Shown piece by piece: positions 2,268 to 27,380 of a stretch of DNA of 32,471 nucleotides (position 1 is the stretch's first letter; each line of letters begins with the position of its first letter). The stretch is from Paludibacteraceae bacterium (GTDB lineage Bacteria; Bacteroidota; Bacteroidia; Bacteroidales; Paludibacteraceae), in contig JAFYSK010000032.1 in assembly GCA_017559385.1 (NCBI GenBank), forward strand, positions 1-32,471, written 5' to 3'. The notes under the pieces were generated by a model that was given only the letters and a program-made list of their open reading frames with translations, searched no databases and was not told the origin of the DNA. A program made the translations under genes and the position numbers.

Positions 2268-2474
2268 ACACCTTTCGCCTCCTCGCCCATAGCCCTTCGC
2301 CTTTCGGCGTGTTAAAGAAGTTTTAATGGTTTCAAGGGTTTTAAAGGTTTTAAGGGTTAAATCCCGAGTCGCGAGCTACTGTCATCCGTGAGAATCCGTG
2401 AGATCCGTGGGAGGTAATAGCCGGCTTTGCCGCCTCTAAACCCTTAACATTCGCTCAGCCCCCCCCCCTACATC
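2268..2474. other. Non-coding stretch with TTTTAAGGG repeats and a C10 tract
   Basis: Contains GGTTTTAAAGGTTTTAAGGG-type heptamer repeats (about 2328-2358), an inverted copy of the ATCCGTGAGAATCCGTGAGATCC motif found beside other repeats, a GGCTTTGCC mini-hairpin (about 2423) and a run of ten C at 2459-2468. I see no gene. Confidence 0.6.
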
Positions 2475-2530: not shown

Positions 2531-3715
2531 TTATTTAACCACTGAACCAGTTGCGCTGTATTTAACGCCGTTCTTGATGATTACTAGTTGGCCGTTCTCA
2601 AGTTGTTTCTCTACATTGCCAGCAGCGGTAGTCACATCCTCAACAGCAGTTGTAGCTACGTTGTAAGTGATATGAATAGGTACATTGTATGAGTTAACAG
2701 CGTCGATTACCATAGTGAGTTTGCCATCTACTTTACCTACCTCAATTTGACCAGAAACCATGTAGTATAGTTTGTCGAGATACATTGTACCAGCTTCCTC
2801 AACCAATGTGCTGTAGAAGCATGGCCATACGCCTTGACCTGCTACATAACCTTGTGAAGCATATGCAGTACCGTAAGCAGGAGTTGCAGACAATGGATAT
2901 ACGCCAGCTGGAACACCTACCTCAGGATCAGTAGTGTTAGCAAAGAACAACAATGATATTTGATCACTCATATCAGCTGCAACAACATCTACATAGATTT
3001 GGCCGCTAGCTGCGTAATCCAAGTCAACTACCAAAATATCCTCGGTAGTATAAGCACGGTTTACGCTACCTGTTTGCTCGTCGTATTGAAGACCAGTATT
3101 TGCGCCTCCGGCAGGATCATAAACCACTTTACCAGCTACGCCGTTAGAGTTAACTGCGTCGATAGTCAATTTCATTTTGCCATCTACGTACTCAATAACC
3201 ACATTACCGCTTACCATAAAGAACATAGGGGTAGTGACGTATACGCCATCATCTTTAACTACCAATGGGAAGTATGCGCAAGGTGTCACACCATATTGTG
3301 CGCTGTAACCTTGAGAAGCATAAGCTGTACCGTAAGCAGGAGTGCTAGAGATAGGATAAGTACCAGCAGGTATGTTGCCATTCTCGTCAAGTGCTTGTAC
3401 AAAGAGTAAGAGTGATGTTGAGCTGCTGTAGTCAGCTGCAATCACGTCGATATATACTTGACCTTGGCTGATGTAGTCGGTGGTTACCTCAAGTGCGTCA
3501 CCAGCGTTGTAAGTAACGTTGATAGCCTCGGTAGCATCGTATTGAAGACCAGTAGTAGCTGCAGGAGCTTTCTTCAAACCAGGAGCGAGCTCAAAAGTCA
3601 AATTGGCTGATTTTGGACTAAGTTGATAAGCATTGCGTGGAGTGCCCACTGTTGGGTTGGCTACTGCGCCAAGTACCATACATAATGACAAAGCAAGTGT
3701 GTAAAGTTTTTTCAT
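2531..3715 (-). CDS. Secreted protein with two tandem beta domains and shared C-terminal tail
   Basis: A 394-residue protein with an N-terminal signal peptide (MKKLYTLALSLCMVLGAVA, residues 1-19). Two homologous domains of about 145 residues follow (roughly 57-200 and 207-350). Each begins GLQYD, carries a [QI]VYIDV-type strand, a PAG[TV]YP[IL]S turn, the signature TPAYGTAYASQGY, and ends with DGK-[ML]-[KT]-x-x-IDAVNS. The C-terminus (about 366-394, ENGQLVIIKNGVKYSATG) matches the tails of the two giant secreted proteins in this window and is probably an export or anchoring signal, possibly for type IX secretion (inference). Promoter at 3799-3830, terminator at 2475-2507; monocistronic. No enzyme motif recognised. 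Confidence 0.85.
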   Translation of the reverse strand: MKKLYTLALSLCMVLGAVANPTVGTPRNAYQLSPKSANLTFELAPGLKKAPAATTGLQYDATEAINVTYNAGDALEVTTDYISQGQVYIDVIAADYSSSTSLLLFVQALDENGNIPAGTYPISSTPAYGTAYASQGYSAQYGVTPCAYFPLVVKDDGVYVTTPMFFMVSGNVVIEYVDGKMKLTIDAVNSNGVAGKVVYDPAGGANTGLQYDEQTGSVNRAYTTEDILVVDLDYAASGQIYVDVVAADMSDQISLLFFANTTDPEVGVPAGVYPLSATPAYGTAYASQGYVAGQGVWPCFYSTLVEEAGTMYLDKLYYMVSGQIEVGKVDGKLTMVIDAVNSYNVPIHITYNVATTAVEDVTTAAGNVEKQLENGQLVIIKNGVKYSATGSVVK

Positions 3716-8789: not shown

Positions 8790-11700
8790 ATGAAAACTTT
8801 TACAAATTTAATTAAACGTGCTTCTCTTAGCACATTTAATAAGAAGAGATACTATCTCTTCATTATTATGCTCCTCACGCTAGGAATAGGATCAGCGTGG
8901 GCAGAGACGGCAAGCAAAGAATGGGATTTAACCTCCTCATCCTCAGAGTGGACGAATTGTGATTGTGTTACTTATTTCTCTCAACCCTATGGTATCAAGA
9001 AAAAGGGTGCGTATATCATTAATAAAAATATTCCAGATTTCATTAATTACTCTTCAACTGCAAGCAGTATTGAAATTGGTGTGAAAAGTTTATGTAATGG
9101 TGATACTCCAAGCCAACTAACAATTTCATTGGTAGATGCGTCTGGTAATGTTGTAGGTTCAGGTCAAACAATCACTCCAGACAATGCTTCTGCCGGTGGC
9201 GGCGAAACTCCAGGAACTGGTGGTGGCAGTGCTAATGTAACATATGACTTTACAAAAATTGATGGTTTTAGTTCTTGGCCTACTTCTTATGCTAATGGTA
9301 TGGGTGATGTAGTTTATACCGAAGCAACTGTAAAATTTACTGGTGCTATAAAGCAGGCCCAAACTATCACAGATTGCCCTGTAACAAAAGGTGGACAAGT
9401 ACAATTAGTTCTAAATGAAGCGTATGCAGATAGAGATATCACAAATATTACTTTTGTGTGTAGACAGTGGGGAACAAAAGCTCAAACAATAACACTTCAT
9501 TATTCAACAGACAAAGGTGTAAATTATACAACGACAGAAATAACTTCTACTGATTTTACAATTTCATCAGCAGAACTACCAGAAGGAACAAATGCTGTGA
9601 AAATTACTTTCTTTAGTTCAAGTAATCAAGTAGGTATAGAATCGGTTACTTTTTCACTTTCTTCAGGTGAAGGTTCATCTAGTGGCGAAACTCCAACCCC
9701 TTCTGTTTCTGTAGCTCCAGCATCTTATACTTTTGCAACTACCAATGTAGGAGAAACTGCGACACAAGAGTTTACCATTACAGCAAAATCAGTTGTGTTG
9801 TCAACACTTTCTGCAAGTATTGACAACACAACTGATTTTGCTGTTAGTGCTATTACTGGTGATAAAGTTACAGTCACCTACCAACCTAAATCAGCAGGAG
9901 ATCATACTGCAACTATGACAGTTAAGGCAGGTGAAGAGGCTTCTACTACTGTTGCTCTTACAGGTAAAGCAGTTGCTGCATTAGAGGGTACTTGGATTCT
10001 CGTAACTGATGCATCATCTCTCAATGTTGGTGATAAAATTATCATTGCAGCTAAAGAATCTGACGTTGCTCTAAGTACTACACAAGCAGGCAACAATAGA
10101 CCAGAAGTAGCAATAACAAAAAATGATAATACTATTACTGCGACTTCTGAAACACAAGTTTTGACATTGCAAGCTGGTAATAAGGAAAACACACTCGCTT
10201 TATACACTGGCGATGGTTATTTGTATGCTGCATCTTCTAGTAATAACTATTTGAGAACAGAAACCACTCTTTCTGACAACTCTTCTTGGACTATTTCTAT
10301 TGCGGATGGTACTGCCACATTGACTGCTCAAGGAACATATACAAGAAATACAATGTTCTACAACCAATCAAGCAAAATTTTCGCTTGTTATGCTAGCAAT
10401 ACTACTACCCAAAAGGCTATCGCTATCTACAAGAATACTAACGGTAAACAATTGGCAGGACTTGCATACGCAACAACCCAATACCTCACTAAGTTAGGCG
10501 ATGCATTTACTACACCAACACTTACTAACCCTAATTCTTTGACCGTTACTTACAGCAGTAGTGATAACAATGTTGCTACAGTTGATAATACAGGTACTGT
10601 TGCTATCAAAGCTGCAGGTGTTGTTACCATCACAGCATCTTTTGCAGGAAACTCATCTTTCCTAGAAGGTTCTGCTAAATATACTCTTTGCGTAACTGAG
10701 CATGCTGGAACAGAGGCTGATCCATACTCTGTGGCTGACGCAAGACGAGTAATTGATGTAATGGAAACAGCAGAAGGTGTTTATGCAACTGGTATTGTAA
10801 GCGAGATCGTAACTGCTTACAATGCAACATATGGCAATATCACCTATAATATTTCTATTGATGGTTCAACAGCTGCTGATCAGTTACAAGCATATCGCGG
10901 CAAAGGAGAAAATGGTGAAAACTTCTCTTCTGCTGATGATATTAAAGTAGGTGATGAAGTTGTTATTAAGGGTAATTTGAAACTACACAACGGTACACTA
11001 TACGAATTTGATGCTGACAACCAATTGGTAAGTCTCAAACGCGAGAAACAACAAGCAGGTCTTGCATACGAAGAAAAAGAACACACTGCTAATGTAGGTG
11101 AAGACTTTACAGAACCAACACTTACTAACCCTAATAGTTTGACCGTTACCTATAGCAGTAGCAATGCCGCTTTGGCTACCGTTGATGCGACAACAGGTGA
11201 GGTTTCTATCCTTGCAGCAGGTAAAGTGACTATCACAGCTTCTTCTGCAGCTGATGCAACCTACGCTGCAGGTTCTGCTTCTTATAACATTACTATCACC
11301 GATCCAAGTCTTGCTGTTGCAACTCTGCCATTCACATACAATAGTGGCAAGGCTGCTATCGAAACAACTGCGGGTATCACACACTCAGGTCTCGGTTCTG
11401 ACTATACCGCTGCTGGTGTACCACCACTCAAGTTCGATACAGAGGGTGACAATGTTATCGTTCACTACGATCAACAAGCGGGCGAGTTCTCATTTGTTTT
11501 GAAACAAAATGGTCAAACCGCTGGTACCTTCACTGTATATGAGTCTGCAAATGGCGAGGATTATACTCCGGTTTGGACCGGTGGTGATTTAGGAAATGCT
11601 AAATCTGAGACTATTACTCCTATTTTGGCGGCAGCTTCTCGTTATGTGAAGTTTGAATATACAACCAAGCCTTCTGGTACTAACTACGGTTTGGGTAGCA

Positions 11701-14102
11701 TCTCTATCCAAAAACCTGATTTCCGCCAAGAGGCTAGTCTTACTTGGAGTGTAGGGTCTGTGACATTGAATCAGGGTGACAATGCTAATGTCCCAACATT
11801 GTCTAATCCAAATGGATTGACTCTAACTTCTTGCACTACTACCAATGATGCAGTGGCAACCGTATCACCAGAAGGTGTTATTACTCTTGTAGGTGCTATT
11901 GGTACAACAACTATCACGGCTACATTTGAAGGTAACGAGGATTACAAACCTGCTGAGGTTTCTTGTACAATCACTGTCGTTAAAGAACAAATCCCTACTG
12001 GAACCTTCGCTCTCTATACTGGAGAAATCGTAGAAGGTGATTATGTTATTGTTTATGACAACTTCGCAATGAACACAACATCATCTGCAGCTCTACGTCT
12101 CCAATATCAAGAGGTAACACCTGCTGAAAATAAGCTTGTGAACCCAGCAAGTCAAATTGTATGGCATGTTGCAGCTAACGGCGAGTACTGGACACTTTAT
12201 AATGATTACGATGAAGTATATGCTGTAAGTACAGGCGTTAAGAATCAAGCAACTACAGCAAAAGAAGTAACAGATAAAGCTAAATGGTCTATTTCAGGAA
12301 CAGAGACATACGACATGGCAAACCTTGACAGAGAGAATGGTAGCGATCCTGATAATAAATACTTAAGAAAGAATAGTGATGTGGGTTTTGCTTGCTATAA
12401 AGATGCTACTGGCGGTCAATTAACTCTATATAGAAAGCAAACTCCACACATAGTTACAGTTGCTGCTTGTACAAATGGTTCAGTAAGTGCTTCTGGAGTG
12501 GTTGATACAAAGGCTCTATCAGGCGATATTATCACCCTAAGCAATACTCCTGAGTTTGATTATCAATTTGTGGGATACAATGTTTATAAAACAGGAGATG
12601 AGACTACTGTAATTACAGTAACAAATGGCACATTCACAATGCCTGCATTTGATGTAACAATTTCTGCCACCTTTGAGGCAATCCAGGAAACAACCATAAC
12701 TCTCTCTGGTAAATTCTCTACTGGCGAATATGAATACGCTGAGTTTGCTACTGGTAACTTGCAACACAATCCTAAATCTGGCGATTGGCGCTTTGCTAAA
12801 CAACAATACCAATACGTAGGTAAAGACAATATCTATGTTGGTAAAGAGGATTACAAAGGTTGGATTGACTTGTTTGGTTGGAGTGCTGATGGTAACTTTG
12901 GTGTTAACCCTTCTAACGATAATGCAAACTACCAAGGTGAGTTTGTTGACTGGGGTACATTGTTTCCTGAAGAAGGCTGGTCAACCCTTTCTAAAAACCA
13001 ATGGAATTACCTTCTCAACGAACGTACAAATGCTGCTTCTTTGAAGCAAATCGCTATGGTAGGTGAAACTTTAGGTATCATGCTCTTCCCTGACGAGTGG
13101 ACTCTTCCTGCTGGTTGTGCACCAACCAAACAAACTCATCACGATGAAGAAGATGGCGAAGACCATTCCTGTGATTTTGTTAGTTACAATTACACCCTAG
13201 CTCAATGGACTGAACTCGAAAAAGCAGGTGCTATCTTCTTGCCTGCTGCAGGTCGCCGTACTGGTGGTTGGGGTAATACTACAGTCTCACCTCATATAGT
13301 TGGAACAGCGGGTGATAAGATGGATGCTGATGGTCACTACAAACACTATGCTGATTACTATGCATACTATTGGACAAGCACCAAAACAGACGGCAAAGTC
13401 AATTACCTTATCAACTGCACACTTGTTGACAAAGTTAAAGATACATACACAGTACATGCAGGTCACGTAAATTGGGCAGAGGAGGCTCGCTATGGTCAAA
13501 GCGTTCGTCTTGCTAAGGTAACTAGCACAGCATACACCCGCATAGTAACCAATGGCAACTACGGTACAATCTGCTTGCCATATGCTTCAAGCAACTATAC
13601 AGGTATGGAGCTCTATGAGGTATCATGGTTGAAAGCAGAAACTGGTCTATATTTGGATCAATTGGCAGCTGGCGCTCAACTCGTGGCTGGTAAACCATAT
13701 ATCTTCCGAGCAACTGCTTCTGAAATCACCGTAACATACACAGGCGATGCAAAAGCTGCTCCTGTAGCAGGAGCAAATGGCTTGACAGGTACATTTACCG
13801 ATATTGCAACTGGTGACGCTGCTTTGGTTGGTAATTATATCATTGCTCAAAACCAAATTTGGGTTGCAGGTGCAAATAACTCATTGCCAGCAAATCGTGC
13901 ATACATCAATGCTACATTAGTTCCTACTACCGAGCAACCTAAGCTCGCAGGTCGTCGTCGCGTATGCATGGGCGAGAACGCTGCTACTGGTCTTGACAAT
14001 ATCACCAATGGTGAGAATACCACTATCAAGGTGATTGAGAACGGTCAACTCATCATTATCCGCAACGGCGAGAAGTTCAACGCACAAGGCGTTCGCTTCT
14101 AG
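8790..14102 (+). CDS. 1770-residue secreted multidomain surface protein
   Basis: The N-terminal signal is extended, ending LLTLGIGSAWA (about residue 38). Domains by position: two beta-sandwich-like segments (40-140 and 148-297) joined by a Gly/Thr linker; an Ig-like ASPM/HYDIN-type domain (about 304-395, VAPASYTF onward); a beta-rich domain (398-550) whose relative recurs at 1068-1217; three Big_2-type Ig domains (about 557-637, 756-841, 979-1066, with NPNSLTVTYSSS); an OB-fold-like domain (638-752, VGDEVVIKGNL); a discoidin-like segment (847-977); a bacterial repeat domain (1220-1299); a FISUMP-like domain (1301-1580, WIDLFGWSADGNFG, FLPAAGRRTGGWGN, YYWTSTK); and a C-terminal module ending ENGQLIIIRNGEKFNAQG, the tail shared with two other proteins here. 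No catalytic motif is apparent; it is probably an adhesin or glycan-binding protein. No consensus promoter is visible upstream. A 43-codon peptide gene follows. Confidence 0.9.
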   Translation: MKTFTNLIKRASLSTFNKKRYYLFIIMLLTLGIGSAWAETASKEWDLTSSSSEWTNCDCVTYFSQPYGIKKKGAYIINKNIPDFINYSSTASSIEIGVKSLCNGDTPSQLTISLVDASGNVVGSGQTITPDNASAGGGETPGTGGGSANVTYDFTKIDGFSSWPTSYANGMGDVVYTEATVKFTGAIKQAQTITDCPVTKGGQVQLVLNEAYADRDITNITFVCRQWGTKAQTITLHYSTDKGVNYTTTEITSTDFTISSAELPEGTNAVKITFFSSSNQVGIESVTFSLSSGEGSSSGETPTPSVSVAPASYTFATTNVGETATQEFTITAKSVVLSTLSASIDNTTDFAVSAITGDKVTVTYQPKSAGDHTATMTVKAGEEASTTVALTGKAVAALEGTWILVTDASSLNVGDKIIIAAKESDVALSTTQAGNNRPEVAITKNDNTITATSETQVLTLQAGNKENTLALYTGDGYLYAASSSNNYLRTETTLSDNSSWTISIADGTATLTAQGTYTRNTMFYNQSSKIFACYASNTTTQKAIAIYKNTNGKQLAGLAYATTQYLTKLGDAFTTPTLTNPNSLTVTYSSSDNNVATVDNTGTVAIKAAGVVTITASFAGNSSFLEGSAKYTLCVTEHAGTEADPYSVADARRVIDVMETAEGVYATGIVSEIVTAYNATYGNITYNISIDGSTAADQLQAYRGKGENGENFSSADDIKVGDEVVIKGNLKLHNGTLYEFDADNQLVSLKREKQQAGLAYEEKEHTANVGEDFTEPTLTNPNSLTVTYSSSNAALATVDATTGEVSILAAGKVTITASSAADATYAAGSASYNITITDPSLAVATLPFTYNSGKAAIETTAGITHSGLGSDYTAAGVPPLKFDTEGDNVIVHYDQQAGEFSFVLKQNGQTAGTFTVYESANGEDYTPVWTGGDLGNAKSETITPILAAASRYVKFEYTTKPSGTNYGLGSISIQKPDFRQEASLTWSVGSVTLNQGDNANVPTLSNPNGLTLTSCTTTNDAVATVSPEGVITLVGAIGTTTITATFEGNEDYKPAEVSCTITVVKEQIPTGTFALYTGEIVEGDYVIVYDNFAMNTTSSAALRLQYQEVTPAENKLVNPASQIVWHVAANGEYWTLYNDYDEVYAVSTGVKNQATTAKEVTDKAKWSISGTETYDMANLDRENGSDPDNKYLRKNSDVGFACYKDATGGQLTLYRKQTPHIVTVAACTNGSVSASGVVDTKALSGDIITLSNTPEFDYQFVGYNVYKTGDETTVITVTNGTFTMPAFDVTISATFEAIQETTITLSGKFSTGEYEYAEFATGNLQHNPKSGDWRFAKQQYQYVGKDNIYVGKEDYKGWIDLFGWSADGNFGVNPSNDNANYQGEFVDWGTLFPEEGWSTLSKNQWNYLLNERTNAASLKQIAMVGETLGIMLFPDEWTLPAGCAPTKQTHHDEEDGEDHSCDFVSYNYTLAQWTELEKAGAIFLPAAGRRTGGWGNTTVSPHIVGTAGDKMDADGHYKHYADYYAYYWTSTKTDGKVNYLINCTLVDKVKDTYTVHAGHVNWAEEARYGQSVRLAKVTSTAYTRIVTNGNYGTICLPYASSNYTGMELYEVSWLKAETGLYLDQLAAGAQLVAGKPYIFRATASEITVTYTGDAKAAPVAGANGLTGTFTDIATGDAALVGNYIIAQNQIWVAGANNSLPANRAYINATLVPTTEQPKLAGRRRVCMGENAATGLDNITNGENTTIKVIENGQLIIIRNGEKFNAQGVRF

Positions 14103-19676: not shown

Positions 19677-21128
19677 ATGATGAAAAAGTTTTATCTTAAG
19701 AGTTTGCTAGTGTGTGTGCTAGCATTATTGCTTTCTTCATGTGCAGAAGAGTACACTAAAGTTATTCCTGCGGATGCCATCGCCGTAGCAGAATTAGACG
19801 TGAAGTCTATACTGAAAAAATCGAATCTAGGTTCGCACGAAGACAAATTGAAAGATATATTAAATGTTCTGAAAAAAGAAGATAAACAGTTACGCAATTT
19901 AATCAATGTTATTGAGAGTGGTCAGTCTGGAGTAGATTGGCTTAAACCTGCGTATATGTTTTTGGATGGTGAGCATCCATATTTGGTATTAGCAGTTGAT
20001 AATAAAAAAGATCTAGAAAGTAGTATTTTGTCTCTCTCTACCAAATATGACAGGTTTCAAGTTCTCTATGATGGAGAAATATCTTGGATAGAACTTGATG
20101 GAGAGCTAATAGGTGCTTTAACGAAGAGTACATTGATTATCGGTGATGAAGATTCTAGATCTATCTATCGTAACATGTTGGAGCATAATAGAGATCCATT
20201 CTTTGGCTCAGAAGCTGGTAAACTGTTTGAAAAGCATGCAGGTGATGCTACAGTATTAGTAAACATGCAGGCAGTTCCTTTAGATATCAAACGCGAACTA
20301 TGCAGAGAATTAGAGTATGAGTTGGGTGATATCGATGGATTAGATGATATGTATGATCAACTCTTTGAGTTGCAAGCAGTGGCTAATTTGAAGTTTGAGA
20401 AAGGAAAGGCATCTGTCAATCTCTATACAGAAAATATGAGTGATGACCTAACTAATGTATGTGGTAAAATAGATACTGATGAGTTGGAGCAAGTACCAGC
20501 TAATGATCTTATCGGTTTGATGGCTCTCTCACTGAATGGTTCAAGAACTTACGAATACATGGAGGATATATTGAATGCTGTTAGACGCGAATTGGATTAT
20601 GAAGATCGAGAGTTGCTACGTATGCTGGTTGATGTGTTGAAGAATACTAATGGAACCGGTGTTGCCTCTATATCAGGTGAGATAGATGTAGATGAACCTG
20701 AGGTGTTGTGTCTATTGCCAGTATCCAAGCGTAAGGTAACTGATGTGCTAGACTACTTGGGTGAAGATCTACCATATATGTATAGGCTGGTAGGTGATAC
20801 TGAACATGCAGCCATTACCAATATCTCTGGTTATTCATATGGTAATGTATCTAATGGTTTTGAAAATGCATCTAAAGCTAAGTCATGCTGCGCATATTGT
20901 TATTTGAATTTGAGACCTGTAGCAGATTGGATAGTACGCGAGTCTAGCAGAGAATATCGAGGCGATGTTTCAGTAGCGTTAAGTAGTTTGGATTATGCTG
21001 ATTTTAAATTGGATGAAACCTTTGGTATGAGTTTGAATCTATACTTAACCGATGATTCAGATAATGTGCTTGCTGTAGTAGTGGATAAGGCAGTGAATTT
21101 TGTTTATGACCATTTGTCTGACTTTTAA
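19677..21128 (+). CDS. Lipoprotein of the DUF4836 type
   Basis: A 483-residue protein with signal peptide and lipobox LLLSSC (lipidated Cys 22). Two adjacent ATGs (19677 and 19680) are possible starts; the choice changes one residue. The mature N-terminus YTKVIPADAIAVAELDVKSI is typical of DUF4836 lipoproteins of Bacteroidales (IPADA-x-x-V-x-x-[IL]-D). The body is acidic alpha/beta sequence, with GVASISGEIDVDEPEVLCLL and MSLNLYLTDDSDNVL near the end. Probably on the periplasmic or outer face of the envelope; function unknown. Monocistronic, with its own promoter (19583-19614) and terminator (21145-21190). The family call is from memory of the N-terminal motif and length, so moderate. Confidence 0.75.
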   Translation: MMKKFYLKSLLVCVLALLLSSCAEEYTKVIPADAIAVAELDVKSILKKSNLGSHEDKLKDILNVLKKEDKQLRNLINVIESGQSGVDWLKPAYMFLDGEHPYLVLAVDNKKDLESSILSLSTKYDRFQVLYDGEISWIELDGELIGALTKSTLIIGDEDSRSIYRNMLEHNRDPFFGSEAGKLFEKHAGDATVLVNMQAVPLDIKRELCRELEYELGDIDGLDDMYDQLFELQAVANLKFEKGKASVNLYTENMSDDLTNVCGKIDTDELEQVPANDLIGLMALSLNGSRTYEYMEDILNAVRRELDYEDRELLRMLVDVLKNTNGTGVASISGEIDVDEPEVLCLLPVSKRKVTDVLDYLGEDLPYMYRLVGDTEHAAITNISGYSYGNVSNGFENASKAKSCCAYCYLNLRPVADWIVRESSREYRGDVSVALSSLDYADFKLDETFGMSLNLYLTDDSDNVLAVVVDKAVNFVYDHLSDF

Positions 21129-21144
21129 TCAAACTCACTAATAC

Positions 21145-21190
21145 AAAAAATCACCCCGCAGGTCGTTGGACTTGTGGGGTGATTTTTTTT
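21145..21190 (+). terminator. Strong intrinsic terminator after the DUF4836-like gene
   Basis: AAAAAATCACCCCGCA (21145-21160) pairs with the TGTGGGGTGA segment near 21173-21182, followed by T8. Confidence 0.95.
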
Positions 21191-21302
21191 TGGGTGTAGA
21201 GTGTATTTCTTTCTACAAGAAGTGGGAGCGTAGCGATAGTATGGGCTGCATAGCGCGTTGTTCAGCAAGCAATAAAACGACTCAAACTGGACTGTTTTGA
21301 TA

Positions 21303-21385
21303 TAGAGTCATGAACCTCTTAGTATCATTCCTCCCTTACTAGGGGGAATGTATACATACTAAGAAGGGTTCTTAACACGACTCTA
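21303..21385. other. 83-nt long imperfect hairpin
   Basis: Nested complementary segments: TAGAGTC (21303-21309) with GACTCTA (21379-21385); GAACC (21312-21316) with GGTTC (21367-21371); CTTAGTAT (21318-21325) with ATACTAAG (21356-21363); CATTCC (21326-21331) with GGAATG (21345-21350), closing near TTACTA. No ORF, promoter or T-tail was found with it. It could be a structured RNA element or a relic of a mobile palindrome. Confidence 0.6.
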
Positions 21386-21447
21386 ATCAAAGCCCCCACC
21401 ATAACCGTTTAAAGAGTTTTTAAGGGTTGAGGAGTGTTGAGGATAAC

Positions 21448-21560
21448 GCTTCGCTCTTCTTAGCCACAAGGGCACGATAACGCTTCGCTCTTCCTTCGGA
21501 GTTCCTTCGGAGTTCTTTCGGCATAAAGGGCTCGATAACGCTTTGCTCTCCCTTTGGCAG
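21448..21560. repeat. Inverted relative of the 4996-5097 repeat, with TTCCTTCGGAG units
   Basis: GATAACGCTTCGCTCTTCTT, AGCCACAAGGGCACGATAAC, then GCTTCGCTC again and tandem TTCCTTCGGAG units. It is the reverse complement of the 34-bp unit at 4996-5097. Nearby, at 21592-21620, AATCGCACCAA is tandemly duplicated. The stretch 21192-21751 has no gene; an isolated TATCTTTG at 21672-21679 lacks a -33 box. Confidence 0.7.
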
Positions 21561-21751
21561 AAATATAGTATTATTATTGTGTTGACTTATGGAATCGCAC
21601 CAAATCGCACCAAATCGCGACAGAAACTAACAGAAAGTGCCCAATCCGCTCAATGGGGGTGTTGGATGTATTATCTTTGCACTCGAATTCGGTAAGCGAG
21701 AAGTTTTTTTGATAAAAATAATCTACTTTTTATAAAAAAACTCACCACGTT

Positions 21752-21783
21752 CTTGCGTATTCGGAAAAAAAATACTAAATTTG
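21752..21783 (+). promoter_or_regulatory. Promoter of the poly-G leader and giant protein
   Basis: CTTG at 21752-21755, a 20-nt gap, TAAATTTG at 21776-21783. No other consensus promoter lies between here and the ATG at 21990. Confidence 0.65.
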
Positions 21784-21805
21784 CACCCGAAAATAAATGT
21801 ATACC

Positions 21806-21919
21806 ATGAAAGTCAACATAAATCTCCGTTCAGGTGTTATTTCTTTGATTTCAGCCCTTCAAAATGGGGGGGGGGGTATTTGTCGTAATTTTACAGAAAG
21901 TCCGTTCTACAGAATGTAA
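21806..21919 (+). CDS. 37-residue leader ORF containing an 11-G tract
   Basis: Starts MKVNINLRSGVISLISALQN, then a Gly run encoded by G11 (21866-21876), then ICRNFTESPFYRM and TAA at 21917-21919, nine nt before a terminator hairpin. It begins about 20 nt after the promoter. Changing the G count changes where translation stops: with 12 G it ends at the TAA at 21886-21888 of the present numbering; with 10 or 13 G it runs to the TGA at 21942-21944, inside the hairpin loop. It could be a regulatory leader peptide; alternatively a chance ORF. No family recognised. Confidence 0.45.
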   Translation: MKVNINLRSGVISLISALQNGGGGICRNFTESPFYRM

Positions 21920-21927
21920 TACATATT

Positions 21928-21958
21928 GCAGAGCCTATTTGTGATAGGTTCTGCTTTT
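21928..21958 (+). terminator. Terminator/attenuator between leader ORF and giant gene
   Basis: GCAGAGCCTAT (21928-21938) pairs with ATAGGTTCTGC (21944-21954) around TTGTG, with one G-U pair, followed by T4 (21955-21958). It lies 31 nt before the next ATG, inside what seems to be a single transcript, so it may act as an attenuator. Confidence 0.75.
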
Positions 21959-21989
21959 GCATTGATATAAATATATTAATTAAAATACC

Positions 21990-24900
21990 ATGAAAAAATT
22001 TACACTATTTCTTTTTGCAATGTTCTGCAGCGCTTTATCGTTCGCCGCGCTGAACCCGTATGCGTATGGGTTAAAGTCTAAATTATCTGACGATGAGAAA
22101 ACTGTAACTATTACTTACAAATTGAATGCCCCAGCTACAGCTGTCAATGTGGTTATTATGGATGGCGAAACGGTTTTGGCAACTCAACCTAGTACAGGAA
22201 TAACCCAGGGTGAGCATAGTGTAGATATTTCTACAGATGGCTTTCCAAAAGGCAAAACGCTAAAATGGAAAGTAGAGGTGAAAGGTACTTCGGTGGCTGC
22301 ACCAACTGAGCATTCTAAAAATCATAGTTTCTATCATCCTTCTTCGATTGATATTGATAACAACCCCGAGAATGAAACATTTGGCTTGTTGTTGGTAAAC
22401 GATGCTATGCAAAAAGTTAAAAATGCCACGACGCATGCAGATGGTTCGACATATGTAGCTTCAGGTTTTGGAGCAGGTATTTTTGCTTTTAATCCAGCAT
22501 TTGAACTCATACCAAATGGAGATGACCCAGGATATAATGGCGGCATAACATTTACAACCACTCGTGCTGATGGCACTGGTACTGCATACGCTCCTCGCCG
22601 TATCCGTATCTCAGACGATGGTCGTATCTTTGTTACTTCCTTGAATACAGATGGTAACTATTTGTGGGAAGTTAACCCAAAGAATATGAACGAGTGGACT
22701 CCTGTGTTCCAAGGAACAAGTCTTAATGCAAATAAAGAAGTTCTTGATGCAAGTGGTAATTTTATCGTTGGCCCTAACTGTGGTTTCGATGTTATAGGCA
22801 GCAAGGATGGCTTAAGATTAATGATGTATTCAGTAAATTTGGCGGGTATAAAATCAGCCACGATGAGTGGTTTTAAGTGTGCTGAATATAACCTTGGAGA
22901 AAATACTACTTGGAATAAAACTCCAAGTAAAATTTGGATTAATGGCATCTACGCTGTCAGTTACACTGGTACCCAAATCGTGTATGATAAAGATGGCGGT
23001 ATTTGGATGGCATCAAACCGTGGCACGACTAAAGATAGTCAACCTGGACTGGTTCATTATAATGCGGAGGGTGTTGAAGATTATAAAGCATTATTAAATA
23101 ATGCAAATAATGCAGCTATACGTTTTGATAAGGATTTCTCTAGGTTAATTATTGCTGGTGTAAAGGAGGGTACAGCAACTTCTAAAAAAGCAACAGTTTA
23201 CACTATATCAAAAGATGCTAGTGGTAAACCTATTTTAACTCAGGACGTAGTTATTGACATGAAAACAGTTGGAACGCAACTGAATGATTTTGCGTTTGAC
23301 TATGCTGGAAACCTATATGCATGTGGTAACTCTAGTGAGAAACTTGTTGCATGGGCAATGCCTTATAGCGGAACTATTTCTACTCCTTGCCCATCTAAAC
23401 ATACATTTAGTTTGACTGCTCCTGCACAACTAAATCCATTTGCGTATAATTTGTGGTCAGAATTATCTGCTGATGAGAAGAATTTGACTATTAAGTATTC
23501 ACTCAATGCCAAAGCAACTTCTGTTGAATGGGTATTGATGAATGGCAATAATGTGGTGAAGACTGTAGATCTTGCATCATTGGGTCTTGAGAAAGGTGAT
23601 TATACAGAGACTATTTCTACAACCGATTTTCCACAATGTAAAAAACTCACATGGAAGATTGAGGTAAAAGGTGTGGCAGTGAGTGAGCCAACGGAGTATC
23701 CTGTTAGTTACGATTTTTATCACCCATCTTCCGTGGATATTGATAATAACCCAGAGAATGCAACTTTCGGTTTGATTCTCTGTAATGAAGCAATGCAGTC
23801 CGTAAAAGGCAAAAAACAAACCGATACAGGAGAAGATTATTTAAGTTCATCGTTGGGTGCAGGTATTTATGCTTTTAACCCTGCTTTTGAAAATACAGGT
23901 AAGTACAACGGCGGTATTGAGTTTACTACAACCCGTGCCGACGGCACAGGAACTGCATATGCACCACGTCGCATCCGTATATCTAATGATGGACGTATCT
24001 TTGTTACTTCATTGAATACAGATGGCAACTATTTATGGGAAGTTAATCCAATGAACCTAAATGAGTGGACTCCTGTATTCAAAGGCACTTTGAATAGCAA
24101 TAAAGAGTTAGTTGATGCAGGTGGTAATTTTGTTGCTGCTCCTAATGTCGGGTTTGATGTTCGTGGAGAAGGAGCAAACCTTAAGTTATTGATGCTGTCT
24201 TCTAATCTTAGAGGATTTCCTTCTACATATGCTGTTGCTGCATTTAAATGTCATGAATACAATTTAGGAACTGCCACAACATGGAATAGTGCTCCATCAA
24301 ATAAGATTCTAAGTGGAAAATATATGATTAATTACACTGGCGACCAAGTTGCATACGATGCTGAAGGAGGGGTTTGGTTCTGCCAACATCAAGGTACCGC
24401 TAAAGAGGATTATCCATCATTGGTACACATTAATAAAAACGGGGTTGAAGATTACAAAGAAGTGGTAAACAACCGCATGGCTGGAGGATTCCGATTCAAC
24501 AACGACTTTACAAAAGTAGTAATTGCTGGTATTGCAGATGGAACAAAGAATAGTAAAAAAGCAACTATTTATGCAGTCTCTAAAGATGCTTCAGGTAATC
24601 CTGTTTTGACTCAAGAAGCCGTTATTGATATGGCCACTCTTGGTAACAACCTTAATGACTTTGCATGGGATTATGCAGGTAACTTGTATGGTGTAAGTAA
24701 CTCAAATGAGAAACTTGCAGTATGGGCAATGCCTCACTCAAGCGAGGATGCAGTTGCTACTCCAGCAGCATCTAAGTATGCGTTCAGTATTGGTAAGTAC
24801 AGCATGATAGTAAATACCAATGACGAGAATAAAGGTACAGTAACTGGTACTGGTGAGTATAAAGTGGGCGAAACAGCAACTCTGACAGCAACTGCAAAAG

Positions 24901-27380
24901 AGGGTTATAAACTCCTCTATTGGAGCGACCGCTCTACAGAGAACCCACGTACCATCACAATGAATAAGAATGAGGCTCTCTCTGCATACTTCGTGAAGGA
25001 GTATGACGAAGAGCAAACTTTCACCATTACAAAAGTATGGGAGAACACCAATGTGCCAGAAACAAACACCAATGGTTATCAGGCCGTAGGATGGGATGAA
25101 AAAGTATATTTGCAAGCCTCAGCTGATAGTAAAATTAAGGTGTATTCTAATAGTGAAGATGCTCCTACAGAATATGCAACCTCTGGTGCTGGATATCAAA
25201 TAGCAGTAGATGAAGCAGGTAATATGATTGTATTTAATGCTACATTCTATGTAGCAAACCCTAACGCAATTCTTATATATAAGAAAGGTAGCACTGAGGC
25301 TACTCCTGTAAGTTTTACACTACTACAACCAGGTCGTTGCGACTTCTTCTCTGCTTCAGGTAATATCTATAGCGAAGAAGGTGGATATGTATATTTCTAT
25401 TGTAATACAACAAAAGTAGTTAATCGTCTAAAAATTAAAAATGGTGCTGCTACTGCTGCAGATGTAACTACAGATGTTGTAGGTGGAAGTCTCGTTGACG
25501 GATGTACCCAAAACCATGTTGTAGTTGATATCTTTGGTAACCTGTTAGCTCAATCTCGCTTAAATGGTGTGAGAGCCGTTAATGTTCATACCGATGAGGC
25601 AAAATCATTCTTCCTGCCTGAACATAAGACCAATACACTCGGTGGTTGCTCATTTGAATTAGGAGGTAAAGAATTTTGGGCATATAATGTTGGTACTAAA
25701 GCTTATACTAGCGAATGGAAGTTATACAACATAACTGACAAAACATTCTTGTCTGAAACTACACTCTACGCAAAAAACACAACAGAAACCAATAAAAACC
25801 AAGCCGCTAACTGGCTCAATGTACAAGTAGTTGATGAGAACACTGCGTACATCTACCAATATTGTCCTACAGTAGCTGTTGCACTCTGGAAAGTTTCTCG
25901 CGATATTAAATACAATGTATCTGCAACTGCAGAGAATGGTACTGTAACAGGTGCTGGTAAGTATAAAGAAGGAACAACTGCAACATTGACAGCAACCCCT
26001 AATGCTCGTTATGACTTTGTTAATTGGACAAAGGGTGGTATAGAGGTTTCTACTGATGCTACATACTCATTCGAGGTAACAGAGGATGTTGAACTTGTAG
26101 CAAACTTCTCAAAGAAACCAGATATCGCTTACGAACTCAATGGTGGTCAATGGAATAAGTATGGTTGGACTAGCAAGAAGGATATGTATGATGCATTCGT
26201 TGTAGATTGGAAAGAATACTCTAATAGTGTTCAGTATTTCTGTCCGTATGAAACCCAACTAGGTATTGGAAACTCTAATCAAGGTCTTCCTACTGCTATT
26301 CTAGGAACACAAGATATTTTAGGATTTATGGCACAAGAGAAGTGGGCGTGGTTGGGAGAATTCCTAGATGCTCTTGCTACAGCTCAAGGCAAAGAGACGA
26401 TGCCAACAGCAGCTACAACACAAATGCGTTTTGCATTAGGTAACTTCTTCGGCGAGGATAATAACAATGCAACGTCTTGGGTTGGTGCAGTAGATTGCTC
26501 TGCAGGTCAAGCTGATCCAGATGCATTCCAACCTACCTGGGGACATTTATTATCTAATCCTACACAACCTACAACTACTATGGAACTGGGTAACCCATAT
26601 AGAGAGGGACATGACTTCGGCGGATGGTATGAAACAGCTGACTTTACTGGTGCTGCAGTTACAACCATTGATGAGAATACCGTTGGTACATTCTACGCAA
26701 AATGGAATCTAGTAATAGATGAAGATGCTGACAACAACTCTACTGTTCTTGCTCCTTACGAAGGTGAGAGTGTAACAGTGACTGTTAAGCGTAACTTTGA
26801 ACCTAATAAGTGCTATACACTTACATTGCCATTTGATATGAATGCTTCACAAATAGAAGATGTATTCGGCAACGCAACCGTATACGAGTTCTACAATCTA
26901 GTAGAGCATAATGCAGAGGAACTTTACCTTGAGTTTATTCCTACATCTTCTATCCAAGCTGGTGAGCCATGTCTCCTTGTAACTCCTGCTGGTAGCTTTG
27001 ATGCTAACGACGGATTTACTGTAGAGGATGTTATTATTTCCACCACTTCGCAACCTGTACAAGTAGGATCAGTAACAATGATGCCTGTGTTGGATAATGG
27101 TTATTTGATGGACGATCCAAGCGAGTACTATGTATGGAATGGTGGTTTGTATTGCGCAGGAACATACAGTATGACTTCTAAGGGGCTGCGAGCATACTTT
27201 GTATCATCTTCACCATTGCCAGTACGTGCACGTGTGGTATTACAAGATAATGAAGCTACATCTATTCCACTTGTTGGAGTGGAAACTGGCACTCAAGTTC
27301 GCAAGATCATGAAGGATGGACAAATCATCATCATCCGCGGTGAAGAGCAATACAATATTCAAGGACAACGAATGGAATAA
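21990..27380 (+). CDS. 1796-residue secreted propeller-like surface protein
   Basis: Signal peptide MKKFTLFLFAMFCSALSFA (1-19). Two tandem homologous halves of about 455 residues (about 21-480 and 481-935), each starting LNP-[YF]-AY and holding the shared FYHPSS[IV]DIDNNPEN, TTRADGTGTAYAPRRIRIS and IFVTSLNTDGNYLWEVNP; the second parts look like beta-propeller blades (GG[IV]W, DYAGNLY). Next come a bacterial repeat domain (about 932-1010, GYKLLYWSD), a third propeller-like region (about 1011-1305), a second bacterial repeat (about 1308-1375), an unassigned segment (1380-1530), an InlB/Listeria-Bacteroides repeat (about 1530-1570, GHDFGGWYETADFTG), and a C-terminal module ending DGQIIIIRGEEQYNIQG, the tail shared with the 394- and 1770-residue proteins. 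No catalytic motif seen; adhesin or binding protein likely. Expression may pass through the leader and attenuator upstream. A Gly-rich peptide gene follows after 11 bp. Confidence 0.9.
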   Translation: MKKFTLFLFAMFCSALSFAALNPYAYGLKSKLSDDEKTVTITYKLNAPATAVNVVIMDGETVLATQPSTGITQGEHSVDISTDGFPKGKTLKWKVEVKGTSVAAPTEHSKNHSFYHPSSIDIDNNPENETFGLLLVNDAMQKVKNATTHADGSTYVASGFGAGIFAFNPAFELIPNGDDPGYNGGITFTTTRADGTGTAYAPRRIRISDDGRIFVTSLNTDGNYLWEVNPKNMNEWTPVFQGTSLNANKEVLDASGNFIVGPNCGFDVIGSKDGLRLMMYSVNLAGIKSATMSGFKCAEYNLGENTTWNKTPSKIWINGIYAVSYTGTQIVYDKDGGIWMASNRGTTKDSQPGLVHYNAEGVEDYKALLNNANNAAIRFDKDFSRLIIAGVKEGTATSKKATVYTISKDASGKPILTQDVVIDMKTVGTQLNDFAFDYAGNLYACGNSSEKLVAWAMPYSGTISTPCPSKHTFSLTAPAQLNPFAYNLWSELSADEKNLTIKYSLNAKATSVEWVLMNGNNVVKTVDLASLGLEKGDYTETISTTDFPQCKKLTWKIEVKGVAVSEPTEYPVSYDFYHPSSVDIDNNPENATFGLILCNEAMQSVKGKKQTDTGEDYLSSSLGAGIYAFNPAFENTGKYNGGIEFTTTRADGTGTAYAPRRIRISNDGRIFVTSLNTDGNYLWEVNPMNLNEWTPVFKGTLNSNKELVDAGGNFVAAPNVGFDVRGEGANLKLLMLSSNLRGFPSTYAVAAFKCHEYNLGTATTWNSAPSNKILSGKYMINYTGDQVAYDAEGGVWFCQHQGTAKEDYPSLVHINKNGVEDYKEVVNNRMAGGFRFNNDFTKVVIAGIADGTKNSKKATIYAVSKDASGNPVLTQEAVIDMATLGNNLNDFAWDYAGNLYGVSNSNEKLAVWAMPHSSEDAVATPAASKYAFSIGKYSMIVNTNDENKGTVTGTGEYKVGETATLTATAKEGYKLLYWSDRSTENPRTITMNKNEALSAYFVKEYDEEQTFTITKVWENTNVPETNTNGYQAVGWDEKVYLQASADSKIKVYSNSEDAPTEYATSGAGYQIAVDEAGNMIVFNATFYVANPNAILIYKKGSTEATPVSFTLLQPGRCDFFSASGNIYSEEGGYVYFYCNTTKVVNRLKIKNGAATAADVTTDVVGGSLVDGCTQNHVVVDIFGNLLAQSRLNGVRAVNVHTDEAKSFFLPEHKTNTLGGCSFELGGKEFWAYNVGTKAYTSEWKLYNITDKTFLSETTLYAKNTTETNKNQAANWLNVQVVDENTAYIYQYCPTVAVALWKVSRDIKYNVSATAENGTVTGAGKYKEGTTATLTATPNARYDFVNWTKGGIEVSTDATYSFEVTEDVELVANFSKKPDIAYELNGGQWNKYGWTSKKDMYDAFVVDWKEYSNSVQYFCPYETQLGIGNSNQGLPTAILGTQDILGFMAQEKWAWLGEFLDALATAQGKETMPTAATTQMRFALGNFFGEDNNNATSWVGAVDCSAGQADPDAFQPTWGHLLSNPTQPTTTMELGNPYREGHDFGGWYETADFTGAAVTTIDENTVGTFYAKWNLVIDEDADNNSTVLAPYEGESVTVTVKRNFEPNKCYTLTLPFDMNASQIEDVFGNATVYEFYNLVEHNAEELYLEFIPTSSIQAGEPCLLVTPAGSFDANDGFTVEDVIISTTSQPVQVGSVTMMPVLDNGYLMDDPSEYYVWNGGLYCAGTYSMTSKGLRAYFVSSSPLPVRARVVLQDNEATSIPLVGVETGTQVRKIMKDGQIIIIRGEEQYNIQGQRME

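Follow-up and report, generated by a model that had tools for sequence, protein, structure and literature searches.

A G-tract leader ORF and terminator-like hairpin as a probable phase-variable attenuator upstream of surface-protein and lipoprotein genes in a Paludibacteraceae genus

Phase variation of a leader peptide coupled to transcription attenuation has been described for the pil1 locus of Streptococcus gallolyticus, where it involves GCAGA repeats (Danne et al. 2014; PMC3894217). In the available text of that report, a leader stop codon 39 bp, or in another passage 49 bp, short of the terminator goes with low expression and one 4 bp before or within the terminator with high expression, and isolates of the low kind carry a leader stop 28 nt or more before the terminator (PMC3894217). 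In mutants described there, removal of the leader start lowered transcription and removal of the terminator raised it (PMC3894217). A sequence-only reading of the locus studied here had held such a combination to be undescribed, which was wrong in view of the leader phase variation and attenuation already shown by Danne et al. 2014 (PMC3894217). In the literature searched, mostly without subscription journals, slippage together with attenuation was described only in that report, and no paper combined Paludibacteraceae with phase variation.

The locus lies in a stretch of 32,471 nucleotides (the window) from a Paludibacteraceae draft genome of 2.0 Mb, 70 contigs and 85% completeness. Both direct reading and recomputation gave the order already proposed from the sequence, with a Bacteroidota-type promoter, a 37-codon leader ORF containing a G11 tract, a terminator-like hairpin and the ATG of a 1796-codon gene following each other in one line (Table 1). 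The promoter elements and their spacing match what we take to be the Bacteroidota promoter consensus. The leader ORF would comprise 40 codons if started at the in-frame ATG at 21797. Runs of eight or more G residues were above chance in the window (seven overlapping matches, from two tracts, against 0.19 expected), and Rfam gave no match at gathering score in the window and hence no known Rfam leader family. All three leader frames end before the ATG of the gene, which begins 113 nt after the tract; classical poly-G phase variation, with the tract in the controlled gene's own frame, was rejected on this basis. Between hairpin and gene there is no second TAnnTTTG, and a sigma70-type scan found one 9/12 match there (21962-21991), the total of 4 for 21000-23000 being no more than chance (mean 5.7), in agreement with the earlier statement that no second promoter is present. 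The 1796-codon protein has InlB-B/List_Bact repeats and a signal-peptide-like start. C-terminal endings of type NGQLIIIRNGEKFNAQG, presumably similar to T9SS sorting tails, were recognized by eye in the window at 27280-27377, in the ORF at 2531-3715 (minus strand) and in the ORF at 8790-14102; NCBIfam gave no match on the end of the window protein.

Table 1. Positions in the window of the leader features and of the gene proposed to be controlled
Feature	Position	Strand	Basis and proposed state
Promoter of the leader transcript, Bacteroidota-type	21752..21783	+	TTG, 23 nt, TAAATTTG (21776-21783)
Leader ORF, 37 codons in the G11 state	21806..21919	+	ATG 21806, TAA 21917-21919
Conserved leader stretch directly before the G tract	21842..21865	+	Alignment A4
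G11 tract, proposed slippage site	21866..21876	+	Read in sequence; G8 to G11 in 13/13 leaders
Stop codon, G12 (G9, G15) frame	21886..21888	+	39 nt before hairpin; proposed OFF
Stop codon, G11 (G8, G14) frame	21917..21919	+	8 nt before hairpin; proposed partial or ON
Stop codon, G10 (G13) frame	21942..21944	+	Inside hairpin; proposed ON
Intrinsic-terminator-like hairpin with TTTT	21928..21958	+	Stem fold; same-distance hairpin in 13/13 leaders
1796-codon gene, probably exported repeat protein (InlB-B/List_Bact repeats), proposed controlled gene	21990..27380	+	ORF and domain matches

The stem of the window hairpin (21928-21954) is a perfect 12 bp with a 3-nt loop, and the hairpin (21920-21960) folds at -17.5 kcal/mol (z -5.14), a stability equalled by none of 200 shuffles; the T-run that follows is short (TTTT), which counts against an attenuation model. 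Relative to the hairpin, the three frames stop at -39, -8 and +17, the last of these spanning the final loop base and the first bases of the 3' arm. The frame-specific stops of the sequence-only reading were thus recovered, its distances of 40 and 9 nt denoting the same sites counted one base differently. We infer from this anatomy a switch in which transcription would begin shortly after the promoter and the short G-tract leader ORF would be translated, with slipped-strand changes of tract length within a strain shifting the frame downstream of the tract. In an early frame, such as that ending 39 nt short of the hairpin in the window, the hairpin would form and transcription would end (OFF). 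Translation in the other frames would end at the hairpin base or inside it, the hairpin would be incomplete and, if transcription and translation are coupled, RNA polymerase would continue into the surface-protein gene, giving partial or full expression (ON). If a ribosome footprint of 9-12 nt past the stop codon is assumed, the hairpin is predicted to stay intact in early frames and to be removed by read-through, and its remaining stability for leader stops at -3 to -5 is -0.3 to -5.6 kcal/mol. At the G11 stop of the window the same footprint would cover 1-4 nt of the stem only, leaving -13.3 kcal/mol with 9 nt and -5.9 kcal/mol with 12 nt, which makes it doubtful that a G11 ribosome covers the base of the stem as had been suggested. 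Because this residual hairpin is of intermediate stability, the window is read as G12 OFF, G11 partial and G10/G13 ON, and its own G11 frame may be only partly ON.

Of 178 genomes examined from this Paludibacteraceae genus, seven carry the leader, in at least 13 copies together. A search with the 37-aa leader peptide gave matches at E <= 1 in 38 of 200 genomes and was set aside, one of the 16 matches inspected being useful; this match, on the antisense strand of genome G118, led to a real relative. The pattern AATGGGGGN{0,10}TATTTGTC was likewise set aside; it occurred in 6 of 300 family genomes, twice as the leader (window and G118) and four times in what resembles coding sequence by eye. The first relative, in G118, stands before a homologous gene and the next was found in G203; of the inspected regions upstream of surface-protein family members, only those in G118 and G203 carried the leader, and for several others the match fell within a long ORF whose start was out of view. 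A covariance model built from three copies returned 13 clear copies from the 178 genus genomes (E <= 2.6e-4), together with five weaker rows that have no G tract. A second profile built from all 13 copies recovered the same 13 at E <= 9.2e-22 and, after a score gap (next row 0.0021), 39 weak rows at E 0.002-0.1, four of which were inspected. Two of these four, L140 and L142, have a G tract, the layout of L142 being similar, so that a few distant relatives may be uncounted; as the genus searches also used strict filters with about 20 scored candidates per genome, 13 is a lower bound. In L142 (G175:C9:2379-2500, minus strand; E 0.004) a promoter motif, an ATG, a G10 tract and a terminator-like hairpin were observed, and the ORF in another frame seems to run on into a membrane protein, so this locus is either a distant relative or a case of classical poly-G frame switching.

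In an order-wide profile search of 393 genomes the tract was present only in the window's own copy, which was accompanied at E <= 0.001 by matches in two further genomes with no G tract nearby (3/393 in all). A DNA pattern run over species genomes gave 12 stretches, nine identical to known loci and three due to chance, and a search of viral contigs and plasmids found no leader. Named relatives sharing the leader are Paludibacteraceae or Bacteroidales MAGs, and the source, given for eight of the nine matching stretches, was buffalo or cattle hindgut.

The layout of the leader is conserved across all 13 copies. Each has an in-frame ATG 16-20 codons ahead of a G8-G11 tract, and, counting start codons 30 nt or more ahead of the tract, the leader frame has an open ATG in 13/13 copies and each other frame in 0/13. 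From the tract to the first stem base there are 49-54 nt in every copy, the stem being followed by T's, while the sequences of this gap have diverged (67 of 78 pairs no more than 62% alike in an ungapped comparison). The 90 nt before the leader ATG contain TAnnTTTG in 10 of the 13 leaders (shuffle mean 0.81; 0/1000 shuffles reach 10), and in nine it is preceded by TTG at exactly 23 nt; the promoter motif is absent from the other three. A second TAnnTTTG between hairpin and gene was found in none of the 12 leaders examined, the gene of G138b being too distant. The proteins encoded after the 13 leaders appear to be exported and are of at least five kinds, including window-like surface proteins, a List_Bact-repeat protein, a CBM26 protein with InlB repeats, TRL-like lipoproteins (PF13146, E 1.7e-24 for the one of four tested) and a small protein with hydrophobic stretches, and a signal-peptide-like N-terminus was seen by eye in all 13 downstream proteins.

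The hairpins fall into two sequence types, A and B. Among type B (8 copies, 7 distinct), 5 of 11 pairs have changed on both sides, a number reached by 38/500 shuffles, the covariation score is reached by 10/500 shuffles, and 87% of cells are paired compared with 23-61% in slid versions. Type A showed a change on both sides in 1 of 12 pairs, not beyond shuffles (126/500), and one hairpin, that of G326c, is weak (-5.7 kcal/mol).

Stop codon positions were then considered across the three frames of each leader. The 39 stops comprise 19 at -19 or earlier, 8 at -8 to +1 and 12 at +17 or later, with none at -18 to -9. Every leader has one or two early frames, with stops 19-49 nt short of the hairpin, and no leader lacks a frame that ends at the hairpin base or beyond; the earliest stop per leader is at -26 to -49, and at -29 or earlier in 11/13 (G138b -27, G118b -26). 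A frame stopping at -17 or earlier together with one at -8 or later was present in 13/13 (shuffle mean 9.75; 51/2000 equal), and the zone from -16 to -9 was empty (shuffle mean 3.1; none in 57/2000). Stops at the hairpin base (-8 to +3) numbered eight against a shuffle mean of 2.98 (13/2000 reach this), and the frame as assembled reaches -8 or later in 10/13 leaders (mean 4.45; 0/2000), being early in G262, G326b and G203c. Frames running beyond the hairpin were ordinary in number (12; mean 10.5; 661/2000 shuffles). When two near-duplicates were dropped the corresponding figures were 95/2000 for both kinds of frame, 121/2000 for the empty zone, 59/2000 for base stops and, for the late assembled frame (9/11), 1/2000; since the shuffles ignore common descent, all of these frame statistics serve as guides. 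The attenuation proposal, which we regard as supported in part, passes a comparative test that it could have failed, with 12 further copies retaining the leader ORF, the G tract, early as well as late frames and a hairpin at near-fixed distance; the covered G11 state is doubtful. We consider frame-dependent, phase-variable transcription attenuation to be the best explanation of these observations and a probable one.

The sequence AAAATCTTTGATTT..GCC.TTCAAAAT before the tract (21842-21865; columns 7-34 of A4) varies equally at all three codon positions. Over the last 10 pre-tract codons of 11 leaders pN/pS was 0.86, with 0.57 and 1.19 in the shifted frames, and selection to keep the peptide was rejected because this value is not below both control frames; the leader peptide itself is probably irrelevant, what matters being where translation ends. 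The same value tells against the view that the short ORF encodes a phase-variable small protein, of which the hairpin would merely be the terminator and which in type B would contain a hydrophobic LLWLLAMVAAFFY-like segment. Such a segment is indeed encoded over the hairpin by the read-through frames of several type B copies, but type A copies, that of the window included, lack it and none of the three G118b frames reads it, making this view unlikely.

Tract lengths were compared between species and loci with one assembly per species. The loci of TRL-like lipoproteins have G8, G9, G10 and G10 and those of window-type genes G11 and G8, whilst the closest pairs have equal tracts (G203a and G138a both G8; G262 and G326b both G10); with G8 in nine of the 13 tracts, common descent may account for much of the agreement. 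Runs of G8-G11 may also be slippery for polymerase, and if slippage in transcription or frameshifting by the ribosome took place on the tract, every cell would contain several frames at once and show a steady basal readthrough in place of a heritable switch. This is compatible with DNA slippage, but the differences in DNA tract length between related loci argue against it as the whole account, and we regard it as quite improbable.

A third reading takes the G tract in the leader RNA as the target of a small RNA or protein, its length tuning binding and not frame, as for RepG and tlpB. The tract does lie in a presumably transcribed leader, the variation in the pre-tract stretch is indifferent to codon position, and RepG offers a precedent in Helicobacter as far as the consulted sources describe it. 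Binding would, however, leave unexplained both the in-frame ATG in all 13 leaders and a hairpin at fixed distance with early or base stops, and we find this reading very hard to sustain. That a small ORF, a G run and a terminator upstream of the gene came together by chance, which the window on its own would allow, is scarcely credible given 13 copies of the same layout before different genes.

Poly-G tracts were also observed at other sites. A G11 tract at G000:C39:53469-53479 (L008) and a G10 tract at G000:C29:21565-21574 (L006) are each followed by TAAAAT, with the -33 element of a Bacteroidota-type promoter close downstream; their gene products look exported by eye, and promoter phase variation is possible at both. 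A G10/C10 tract at G000:C8:21707-21716 (L004) is in a region that appears coding-like by eye. In the window, a G10 tract at 2459-2468 (minus strand) directly follows the terminator of the 394-aa ORF at 2531-3715 and has no obvious function.

Returning to frame-dependent attenuation, we lean towards the broader view that the leader is a portable, dispersed attenuator cassette, spread before unrelated surface-protein and lipoprotein genes in a ruminant-gut genus and working, whatever protein is controlled, as a random switch whose three states (OFF, partial, ON) follow G-tract length modulo 3; in the literature searched it would be the first leader-frame attenuation driven by a homopolymer and the first in Bacteroidota. 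The sequence rule, tract length modulo 3 plus the distance from stop to hairpin, could allow states of surface proteins to be read from metagenomic reads. With its tract outside the controlled gene, such a design may escape notice.

Amino-acid operon attenuators such as trp and his likewise let translation of a leader ORF decide whether a terminator forms. There, stalling senses a metabolite, whereas here the state would follow from a change in DNA length. With regard to an alternative antiterminator hairpin, as those attenuators have, minimum-energy structures were computed for three leaders, and these retain the terminator. In poly-G contingency genes of Campylobacter and others a variable G tract also shifts the frame, but within the expressed gene according to the accessible text (PMC11955535) and not in a separate leader ORF as here. 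The RepG-regulated tlpB of Helicobacter pylori shares a variable G repeat in the mRNA leader, which the sources at hand describe as a binding site for the sRNA, unlike the frame switch proposed here. To our knowledge no leader ORF or terminator is known at the tlpB leader. The closest likeness, on the available text, is to pil1 and pil3, where a promoter, a leader ORF with a simple sequence repeat, a terminator and a surface-structure gene follow each other and the frame sets the end of translation either some 39-49 nt before the terminator (low) or at or inside it (high). The window leader also has its repeat in a leader ORF downstream of a promoter, a terminator-like hairpin with a T-run, and early and late frames, and by analogy may work like pil1; the likeness is one of working and we make no claim of descent. 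As far as that text goes, pil1 and pil3 are two pilus loci in one Gram-positive strain whereas here a cassette stands before several gene families, their repeat is the pentanucleotide GCAGA whereas here it is a G homopolymer with the GCAGA unit absent, and the pil1 mechanism was demonstrated with mutants whereas attenuation here is deduced from sequence. The same logic and similar distances in a cassette family of another phylum suggest that this design arises repeatedly. Frame-dependent leader attenuation is thus already known, and what is new here is the homopolymer, the phylum (Bacteroidota) and the dispersed cassette.
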